Of a DNA stretch of 35,716 bases, positions 28,294 through 34,924 are shown in pieces (the first letter of the stretch is position 1; every line of letters begins with the position of its first letter). Made by a program: the position numbers and the translations under genes. Origin of the DNA: Gemmatimonadota bacterium (GTDB taxonomy: Bacteria > Gemmatimonadota > Gemmatimonadetes > Gemmatimonadales > GWC2-71-9); NCBI GenBank assembly GCA_016794805.1, contig JAEUJI010000353.1, positions 1 to 35,716 of the forward strand, in the 5' to 3' direction. The notes under the pieces were generated by a model, which was not told the origin of the DNA, did no database searches, and saw only the letters and a program-made list of their open reading frames with translations.

Positions 28294-28398
28294 CACCACG
28301 GAAGCACGGAATCCACGGAATCACACGGAACAGTTCGCCGCGAGAATCACCACTTCTTCCATTCCGTGAACTTCCGTGTATTCCGTGATTCCGTGGTG
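28294..28398. repeat. 105-bp mirror-symmetric heptamer repeat, copy 1
   Basis: Four CACGGAA units start at 28297, 28305, 28314 and 28324, separated by 1, 2 and 3 nt. After a 31-nt centre (28331-28361), four TTCCGTG units start at 28362, 28372, 28381 and 28389, separated by 3, 2 and 1 nt. The element is bounded by CAC and GTG and could fold into a long hairpin. It lies 29 nt after the stop of the Vgb-like gene. Copy 2 at 32739-32843 is the same length and differs at 6 of 105 positions. Confidence 0.92.
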
Positions 28399-32717: not shown

Positions 32718-32738
32718 CGCCACGGCGTGGAAAACACC

Positions 32739-32843
32739 CACCACGGAAACACGGAAGGCACGGAATCACACGGAACTGTTCGCCGCGAGAATCACCACTT
32801 CTTCAATTCCGTGAACTTCCGTGTATTCCGTGTTTCCGTGGTG
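32739..32843. repeat. 105-bp mirror-symmetric heptamer repeat, copy 2
   Basis: Same architecture as copy 1: CACGGAA at 32742, 32750, 32759 and 32769 (gaps 1, 2, 3), a 31-nt centre at 32776-32806, then TTCCGTG at 32807, 32817, 32826 and 32834 (gaps 3, 2, 1), bounded by CAC and GTG. It begins 21 nt after the pump stop and ends 28 nt before the stop of the convergent lipoprotein-like gene. It accounts for most of this intergenic gap. Confidence 0.92.
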
Positions 32844-32871
32844 AAAGTTGCAGTTCCTCAGCAACAAGGAA

Positions 32872-33576
32872 TCACGGCGTCACCGAAGTGAGCCGCACGA
32901 TGTCATCCACCAGCGGCCCGACGCCGCTGGCGTACACCTTGGTGGACTTCGCCCCCGGCTCGAGCGGGGTGGTCTCCGCGAACCGGACGGTATTGCTGTA
33001 GCTGCCCAGCGGCACCACGGTCGTCTCCCCCACGGCCTTGATGGTCACCCGGTCCTGCGCGATCCCCGGCGCCACTTCCTGCTCGAACGCCTGCCCCACC
33101 GCCGGCGTCGCCGGCATGAAGATCCCCGGCGTCGCGCCGCTCACCCCGGCCCGCCACGCGCCGTCGTGCGAGACGATCACCCCATTGTCGTAGATGTCCA
33201 CGTCCTCGCCGTAGTAACAGACCGTGCCGTCCCCGGTCTGCACGAAGAAGTTGCGCGACACCTCGAGCAGCGCCCCCCCAACCGTCTCCCGCTCCTCCAG
33301 CACCCGGGTATAGACCCCGGCGACGAGCTCGGTGTCCGGCAGCGCCGTGACCTGCAGGATCACCGCCTGGCCCTGGTCGTCCCCCTCCAGCACCCACTGC
33401 CGGCCCACCGTCATCGGGAAGTAGGGGTGGGTGATGGCGCTGGAGAGATTGCCGGCCGCGGGCTGGCAGACGGCGATGTCGAGATTGGGCGTGAAGCCGG
33501 GGCCGGAGGCGTCCTGGCAGGCCAGGGTCTGGCCCAGCGTGGTGAGCAGCAGGGCAAGGGTAAGCTGGGTCCGCAT
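32872..33576 (-). CDS. exported lipoprotein-like protein of unknown function
   Basis: A 234-aa protein with a signal peptide (MRTQLTLALLLTTLGQTLA) followed by Cys20, giving a plausible lipobox (TLAC). The mature part contains NPYFP-like HPYFPMTVGRQWVLEG, seen in many uncharacterised exported proteins, followed by beta-rich sequence with paired strands. There are also two later cysteines (Cys37 and the Cys of GTVCYYGED). I do not recognise a characterised family. A GGGGAGGA ribosome-binding site precedes the ATG. A promoter-like motif shared with the nearby ECF sigma gene lies about 42-68 bp upstream, suggesting it belongs to that sigma factor's regulon. It is convergent with the efflux operon. 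Confidence 0.75.
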   Translation of the reverse strand: MRTQLTLALLLTTLGQTLACQDASGPGFTPNLDIAVCQPAAGNLSSAITHPYFPMTVGRQWVLEGDDQGQAVILQVTALPDTELVAGVYTRVLEERETVGGALLEVSRNFFVQTGDGTVCYYGEDVDIYDNGVIVSHDGAWRAGVSGATPGIFMPATPAVGQAFEQEVAPGIAQDRVTIKAVGETTVVPLGSYSNTVRFAETTPLEPGAKSTKVYASGVGPLVDDIVRLTSVTP

Positions 33577-33612: not shown

Positions 33613-33644
33613 CCAAGGAACCCCTCAGCCGGAAAGTTGTGACG
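33613..33644 (-). promoter_or_regulatory. candidate ECF-type promoter, copy A (upstream of lipoprotein-like gene)
   Basis: On the minus strand the site reads CGTCACAACT, then CCG after 2 nt, then GGGTTC and TGG, with the same spacing as copy B at 34893-34924. The block lies between the anti-sigma stop and the lipoprotein-like ATG, leaving a leader of about 40 nt with a good ribosome-binding site. The TCACAAC part resembles -35 elements of some ECF sigma groups; the -10 assignment is tentative. Confidence 0.5.
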
Positions 33645-33650
33645 CCCCGC

Positions 33651-34385
33651 TCAGGGCGCGGCCGCCCCACCAAATCGGAGCCGATAACCCCCGTCGCTGT
33701 CCTGCGTCACGGCCGATTCCACCACGCCCGCCCGCAGCAGGAAGAGCCGCCGCCCCTCCGCCTCGATGCTGACGAGCGGCGCGTCGCGCGGCAGCTCCAC
33801 CTGGAGCCCGGCCCCGGAATCCCCGGCCTGCACGATGAGGAGCCCGGCGCTGCTGGTGAACGCGGCCTGGCCCTCACTCACCCGGACGGTGATCCCCCCC
33901 GAGTCCACCACCACGACCCTGGCCTCGCTGCCGGCCGCGCCACCACCCAGCCGGATGGCCAGGCTCGGCTCCACCGGAAGCACGATGCCCGATGGCGCGG
34001 CCGGCGCCGTCGCGGGTGCCGTCGGAGGTGGAGCCTCGTCACGCCGCGAGATCCAGCCGGCGACCCGCTCCACCCACCGCGGCAGCGGCGATCCCGGCAT
34101 GGCATAGGCCGTCCCCGCCGCCGCGCAGGTCAGCACGATCGTGGCCGCCCACCGCCATCGCCGCATGGCGTTCACGCGGGTGCGGAGCCCCGCCGGCGAA
34201 GACACCGTCCGCGGGTCGGGGAGCTCCGCCAGCCGTGACCGCAGCCACCCTTCCTCTGCCTCCGCGGCGGCCACCCGCGCCCGGCACTCGGCGCAGGCCT
34301 GAAGGTGCGCCGCCACCGCCTGCCGCGCCGGCTCGTCGAGCTCGGCGTGGAGCCAGCGCTGGGTCCGCTCATCATCAAGGTGCAT
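33651..34385 (-). CDS. zinc-finger anti-sigma factor with FecR-like periplasmic domain
   Basis: A 244-aa single-pass membrane protein. The N-terminal anti-sigma domain has the HX3CX2C zinc motif (His27, Cys31, Cys34). A transmembrane helix follows at about residues 75-95, then a Pro/Ala-rich linker and a beta-rich periplasmic domain resembling FecR (SGGITVRVSEGQAAFTSSAG, VSIEAEGRRLFLLRAGVVESA). It should hold the ECF sigma at the membrane until an envelope signal releases it. The start overlaps the sigma gene by 11 bp, the usual arrangement of cognate pairs. The signal is unknown; proximity to a TonB-dependent receptor makes a FecIRA-like signalling route possible, but that is inference. Confidence 0.88.
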   Translation of the reverse strand: MHLDDERTQRWLHAELDEPARQAVAAHLQACAECRARVAAAEAEEGWLRSRLAELPDPRTVSSPAGLRTRVNAMRRWRWAATIVLTCAAAGTAYAMPGSPLPRWVERVAGWISRRDEAPPPTAPATAPAAPSGIVLPVEPSLAIRLGGGAAGSEARVVVVDSGGITVRVSEGQAAFTSSAGLLIVQAGDSGAGLQVELPRDAPLVSIEAEGRRLFLLRAGVVESAVTQDSDGGYRLRFGGAAAP

Positions 34386-34896
34386 CGGGATCCTCCGGAT
34401 ACGCGGCGCGGAAGGCGCGCTTGGCCCGCGCCAGCAGGGTGCCGATGCTCGCTTCCGCGATGCCCGTCGCCTCGGCGATCTCCCGGTAGCGATAGCCCTC
34501 CGCCAGGAGCAGGAGCAGCTCGCGGTCCCGGTCGGGGAGCTGGGCCAGCGCCGCTCGCACCCGGACCCCCGCCTCCGCCGCCAGGGTCGCGTGGGCGGGA
34601 GAGGGGCTTGGGTCTCCCACCAGCTCCGGCGCGCGTGCCGGGCCGAGCAGCCGCCGTCGCCGGCCGCGGGCCGCGCGCGCGTTGCGCCACAGGTTCGTCG
34701 CCACCGTGATCAGCCACGCCTCCGGCCGGTCGGGGAGTCCGCTCCGGCGGTACAGCCGCAGGAAGCTCTCCTGCGCCAGGTCCCGGGCCAGCTCCCCATC
34801 CCCGGACAGACGGTCGAGGTAGCGCTGCAGCCGCGGGAACTGGGCGTGGAACAGCCGCTCGAAGGGATCGTCGCCGGGTCCGGTCATCTCAGCCAT
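34375..34896 (-). CDS. ECF-type RNA polymerase sigma factor
   Basis: A 173-aa sigma-70 family factor with only regions 2 and 4. Region 2 runs from FERLFHAQFPRLQRYL through ARDLAQESFLRLYRR and RPEAWLITVATNLWRNARA. Region 4 shows ALAQLPDRDRELLLLLAEGYRYREIAEATGIAEASIGTLLARAKRAFR with its helix-turn-helix. No SnoaL or other C-terminal extension is present. The ATG at 34896 (MAEMTGPG) directly abuts a promoter-like motif, so either the transcript is leaderless or translation begins at the ATG at 34887. It lies 36 bp after a TonB-dependent receptor gene and overlaps its anti-sigma factor gene. Confidence 0.93.
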   Translation of the reverse strand: MAEMTGPGDDPFERLFHAQFPRLQRYLDRLSGDGELARDLAQESFLRLYRRSGLPDRPEAWLITVATNLWRNARAARGRRRRLLGPARAPELVGDPSPSPAHATLAAEAGVRVRAALAQLPDRDRELLLLLAEGYRYREIAEATGIAEASIGTLLARAKRAFRAAYPEDPDAP

Positions 34897-34924
34897 TGAA
34901 CCCGCGACGCGGTGAGTTGTGACG
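34893..34924 (-). promoter_or_regulatory. candidate ECF-type promoter, copy B (upstream of the ECF sigma gene)
   Basis: The minus strand carries CGTCACAACT, CCG, GGGTTC and TGG at exactly the same spacing as copy A. The motif begins about 9 nt after the stop of the receptor gene, and its 3' end runs into the sigma ATG. It fits positive autoregulation of the sigma gene; a leaderless mRNA would follow if GGGTTC is the -10. Confidence 0.5.

Follow-up and report, generated by a model that had tools for sequence, protein, structure and literature searches.

Two copies of a promoter-like element lie on the minus strand of the analyzed DNA, one before an ECF sigma factor gene and the other before a gene for an exported lipoprotein-like protein. 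Both are very probably (at a probability of about 0.88) promoters read by the sigma factor encoded between them, which would regulate its own operon and a single exported-protein target in a small stress-type circuit. The pairing of the motifs, their uniqueness in the genome, their conservation, their gene linkage and the start-site signature beside them are all directly readable from the sequences compared here. A common predicted two-block promoter precedes the sigma operon and its target, and this arrangement is retained in orthologous loci. The preliminary description had proposed an autoregulated sigma unit with a lipoprotein target, and the proposal gains support from the conservation of the element before sigma orthologs, from its absence before all 21 paralogous ECF genes scored and from its retention on the lipoprotein side even where that gene is divergent.

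The receptor-sigma cluster and its duplicated element

The window, a stretch of 35,716 nucleotides from a Gemmatimonadota bacterium, is one whole contig. The cluster reads, in minus-strand order, TonB-dependent receptor, motif, ECF sigma factor, anti-sigma factor, motif and exported lipoprotein-like protein, with the receptor gene running off the end of the contig (Table 1). We saw no motif copy that would serve the receptor gene. The sigma factor possesses regions 2 and 4 (Sigma70_r2 at residues 18-79 and Sigma70_r4_2 at residues 112-161) without region 3, the composition of an ECF (group IV) factor. The anti-sigma protein carries the zinc-binding motif as HLQACAEC and scores 21.3 bits against zf-HC2, just under the Pfam cut-off of 22.2; its match to anti_sig_ChrR is below cut-off and is limited to residues 1-49. 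Hydropathy gives it only a weak membrane helix, with no 19-residue stretch above threshold in the window protein. The target protein has a weak lipobox (TLAC), with cleaner lipoboxes in its homologs, and shares with them motifs that include GNVWYFGED, EGSWEAG and PGIxMPAxPxVG. It matches no family in Pfam, NCBIfam or PDB, and its single-sequence structure model is uninformative (pLDDT 35).

Table 1. Coordinates of the cluster genes and of the predicted promoters and transcription starts in the window
Feature	Position	Strand	Details
TonB-dependent receptor, C-terminal part, cut by contig end	34933..35716	-	TonB_dep_Rec_b-barrel 2.6e-6
Predicted autoregulatory ECF promoter, sigma operon	34898..34924	-	-35 CGTCACA 34924-34918, 16-nt spacer, -10 GTTC 34901-34898
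Predicted transcription start, sigma operon (G, after T)	34890	-	8 nt past GTTC; inferred from sequence
ECF sigma factor, 173 aa from ATG 34896	34375..34896	-	Sigma70_r2 3e-10, Sigma70_r4_2 4.8e-13 (Pfam)
Anti-sigma factor, zf-HC2/ChrR-like, HxxxCxxC zinc-binding motif	33651..34385	-	Overlaps sigma stop
Predicted ECF promoter, exported lipoprotein gene	33618..33644	-	-35 CGTCACA 33644-33638, 16-nt spacer, -10 GTTC 33621-33618
Predicted transcription start, lipoprotein gene (A, after C)	33610	-	Inferred from sequence
Exported lipoprotein-like target, 234 aa	32872..33576	-	No family match in Pfam/NCBIfam

The two blocks read CGTCACAACTTTCCGGCTGAGGGGTTCCTTGG (minus strand, 33644-33613) and CGTCACAACTCACCGCGTCGCGGGTTCAATGG (minus strand, 34924-34893). 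Re-reading them confirms that they have CGTCACAACT, CCG, GGGTTC and TGG in common at identical spacing, as first noted, and ORF and Pfam checks agree that one precedes the ECF sigma gene and the other the exported lipoprotein-like gene. The CCG of the spacer and the TGG that follows the -10 are not conserved in orthologs and, by that measure, are chance identities outside the element. When up to three mismatches are allowed, the two-block pattern matches twice in the window, versus 0.03 matches expected from shuffles. The genome-wide scan proposed as a check found no further sites: GTCACAACT-N10-20-GGTTC occurs exactly twice in the 3.9-Mb genome, at these two blocks, and the looser GTCACAA-N15/16-GYTC returns the same two sites and no others, while the reversed-pattern controls return none in either case. 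Within this genome the predicted regulon is strictly local.

Conservation of the element and its predicted start sites

We searched 288 genomes of the order for orthologs of the sigma factor, accepting as clear orthologs those with E <= 1e-30, and recovered 30 in 29 genomes, with the window's own counted. A search of genome contigs with the same query returned distant paralogs only, at 22-52% identity over the best segment. In all 30 ortholog loci, the best upstream site conforms to (T/C)GTCACA(A)-N16/17-GYTC, also written TGTCACAA-N15/16-GYTC. Under a leave-one-out position weight matrix (PWM), 28 of the 30 reach at least 14 bits, and the remaining two score 13.7, a value that is weak on its own and that shuffles of the same sequences also reach; the sigma-operon promoter of the window scores 21.9. 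A regular expression with strict GYTC missed six orthologs, and the PWM gave sites in all six. Among the 21 paralogous ECF genes scored from the order, none reaches 14 bits and the highest score is 6.0. Had orthologous loci lacked the motif, this would, as stated beforehand, have counted against the proposal; no such loss was observed. The core of the motif is amended to YGTCACA-N16/17-GYTC. The surrounding genes are also shared: all 23 loci examined have a TonB receptor homolog directly upstream of the sigma gene, and an anti-sigma homolog is detectable by blastp at the same position in 12 of them.

The alignment columns of TGTCACAA and GYTC have high information content, and most of those in the spacer carry almost none. 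Because the information is confined to the -35 and -10 blocks and the spacer is nearly random, the conservation does not merely reflect shared ancestry of the region. The same data bear on whether the blocks resemble each other by chance or are relics of a local duplication of nonfunctional sequence, as the presence of only two genomic copies, 1.3 kb apart, might suggest. The two copies differ in their flanks and spacers, and such an origin is contradicted by the ortholog scan, with the element retained across families whose sigma proteins are only 45-63% identical; we consider it scarcely credible.

A start-site signature accompanies the element. Of the 30 sigma promoters, 26 have a purine 8 nt past GYTC and 25 a pyrimidine just before that position (+7); of 17 target promoters, 13 have the purine. 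A pyrimidine-purine step is the usual initiator pattern, and this step likely marks the start site. The 8-nt distance is close to that of a Sinorhizobium meliloti ECF41 promoter, which lies 9 nt ahead of its mapped start (PMC3616915). The signature also helps to separate promoters from operators of an ordinary DNA-binding regulator, for which short conserved blocks ahead of two genes could be mistaken. The blocks form two asymmetric hexamer-like elements with a fixed spacer of 16-17 nt and no dyad, the initiator stands at a fixed distance from them, and no conserved regulator gene besides the sigma and anti-sigma genes was identified at the locus. An operator function is therefore very unlikely, and we retain the promoter assignment.

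The predicted starts in the window imply different leaders for the two transcripts. That of the lipoprotein gene would be about 34 nt long and would contain GGGGAGGA as ribosome-binding site (33588-33581). The annotated sigma ATG at 34896 begins 2 nt after the -10 and so precedes the predicted transcript start, which points to Met4 (ATG 34887-34885), 3 nt from the predicted mRNA 5' end, as the translation start. The sigma factor is thus probably translated from Met4 on a nearly leaderless mRNA. An in-frame start codon occurs 5-10 nt past GYTC in 13 of the 30 orthologs, in many cases coinciding with the predicted start site, and this recurrence suggests that sigma mRNAs of the group are often leaderless or nearly so.

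Regulon size and target genes across relatives

To gauge the regulon in relatives, we scanned genomes by pattern search. The 27 genomes with the sigma factor contain 37 exact sites compared to 12 in the control, a modest excess because most of the signal sits at the locus: 22 of the 37 belong to the sigma locus or to its target, and the remainder are at about background. The 27 genomes without the sigma factor contain 13 exact sites, versus 9 in the control. Since the motif is at about background away from the locus, the predicted circuit is local.

These distributions also address whether the promoters are read by a different ECF sigma factor of the same genome, for example one of the ECF41 type, with the present sigma gene merely among its targets. 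In favor of this reading, the consensus resembles the ECF41 promoter TGTCACA-n16-CGTC, and the genome encodes many ECF paralogs. No protein of the genome reaches the cut-off of the ECF41 profile (TIGR02957), however, the motif excess is limited to genomes with this sigma factor and is found mainly at its own locus, and the motif is absent upstream of paralogous ECF genes. Reading by another sigma factor is therefore unlikely, and we infer from conservation and co-occurrence that the sigma factor encoded between the blocks recognizes the motif directly. As 19 stretches of the genome match an ECF profile, some cross-recognition by other ECF factors may occur.

A PWM scan of 24 loci yielded 44 sites of at least 16 bits, compared to a single site in the reversed-sequence control. 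Beyond the sigma gene itself, these sites precede genes for exported proteins, and a second copy is present in about 17 genomes. This copy tracks the target gene when the gene moves or flips. Target and site lie downstream in the window and in genomes G014, G013, G276, G001 and G142, are divergent in G027, G225, G266, G052, G246, G047, G161 and G162, and lie upstream in G057, G215 and G143. The element precedes homologs of the window lipoprotein in seven other genomes, following the anti-sigma gene in G014, G013 and G276 and standing divergently beyond the receptor in G027, G225 and G266. The seventh, G001, belongs to the same genus and has a pattern-only site on another contig, before a 38%-identical lipoprotein and just where an anti-sigma gene ends; its layout is thus that of the window. 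In eight genomes, namely, the other five divergent cases and the three upstream ones, the site instead precedes a second, unrelated family of small exported or membrane proteins. The site in G142 precedes another lipoprotein-like protein, and a second target copy in G146 is ambiguous. A convincing second target copy is absent from six of the 24 neighborhoods (G035, G113, G094, G247, G263 and G111), several of which lie on short contigs.

The alternative targets (loci L066, L067, L069, L134, L141, L145, L146 and L148) are about 215-270 aa long and share conserved histidines in the motifs HR..SY, AH, HS and HR. They match no Pfam family, and one guess is that they are b-type heme proteins.

Relation to known ECF systems and a proposed circuit

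The predicted promoters closely resemble those of ECF41 sigma factors, which have been mapped experimentally as TGTCACA-n16-CGTC; the 2012 description treats this -35 as specific to the group, whose regulon consists of one neighboring gene (Wecke et al. 2012; PMC3426412). The -35 and the spacing are nearly the same here, the -10, (C/G)GYTC (SGYTC), is a related form of the ECF41 CGTC/TGTT, and the predicted regulon is likewise confined to the sigma factor's own locus and one neighboring gene. The proteins differ. ECF41 factors carry a fused C-terminal SnoaL-like regulatory extension, whereas the present sigma factor ends 12 residues after region 4 and is followed by a gene for a zf-HC2-type anti-sigma factor. 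The ECF41 target is a COE gene (carboxymuconolactone decarboxylase, oxidoreductase or epimerase), in contrast to the exported lipoprotein or membrane protein found here, and the neighbors in the window are a TonB receptor, an anti-sigma factor and a lipoprotein. Against TIGR02957, the sigma factor scores 40.9 bits, compared to a cut-off of 323. Lacking both the extension and the COE partner and falling far below the cut-off, it is ECF41-like at the DNA level and is not classed as ECF41.

The cluster also resembles FecI-FecR-FecA in uniting an ECF sigma factor, a regulator gene after it and a TonB-dependent receptor. It differs in that the receptor gene precedes the sigma gene, no copy of the promoter element is seen before the receptor, and the anti-sigma protein is zf-HC2/ChrR-like with no match to FecR. 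At seven ortholog loci the receptor carries CarboxypepD_reg in place of an N-terminal STN signaling domain; the N terminus of the window receptor lies off the contig. Given these ortholog receptors and an anti-sigma protein that is not FecR, FecA-type cell surface signaling is not supported. Classical autoregulated ECF/anti-sigma pairs with a zinc-finger anti-sigma protein, such as RpoE-ChrR and SigR-RsrA, share with the present system an overlapping sigma/anti-sigma operon junction, an HxxxCxxC anti-sigma protein and positive autoregulation, the latter predicted here. The ChrR match, however, spans only the N-terminal segment noted above, and the target gene family here is uncharacterized.

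In the circuit that we propose, the sigma factor would read a -35 of (T/C)GTCACA(A) and a -10 of GYTC, 16-17 nt apart, and transcription would begin about 8 nt beyond GYTC. Gene order suggests that, at rest, the putatively membrane-linked zinc-finger-type anti-sigma factor may sequester the sigma factor and that an envelope signal, possibly tied to the TonB-dependent receptor whose gene lies next upstream, may release it. Free sigma factor would then activate its own sigma/anti-sigma operon, a positive autoregulation with a built-in brake, as well as the gene for a single dedicated exported protein, in the window the lipoprotein.

The orthologs may constitute an ECF clade of Gemmatimonadota that has so far gone undescribed, defined by an ECF41-like promoter despite classical anti-sigma control, an often leaderless sigma mRNA and a single target slot filled, by lineage, with one of two unrelated exported proteins (the lipoprotein or the small histidine-conserved membrane protein); we regard the case for and against this broader proposal as evenly balanced. 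Our literature search found no description of the group, although its coverage was incomplete and such an absence is weak evidence. If the predicted promoters are correct, the TGTCACA-type -35 reported as ECF41 specific is used by another ECF clade as well. The switch in target identity, with promoter and circuit retained, bears on how small sigma factor circuits are rewired. The analysis also yields a testable promoter consensus, a start site and a complete predicted regulon for an apparently uncharacterized ECF group in a phylum whose transcription has been little studied.

Other features were observed near the cluster. Two copies of a long-hairpin element (plus strand, 28344-28378 and 32789-32823) flank CzcB/CzcA-like efflux genes; the core of the element occurs only twice in the genome, and for the copy within 32718-32880 the folding energy is -72.8 kcal/mol (z -6.6). 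The CzcA/CzcB pair of the window is convergent to the receptor-sigma cluster. In two relatives, at loci L068 (G035:C8) and L147 (G111:C67), the receptor-sigma cluster is immediately preceded, in the same orientation, by the gene for a CzcA-like RND efflux pump 24-29% identical to that of the window.
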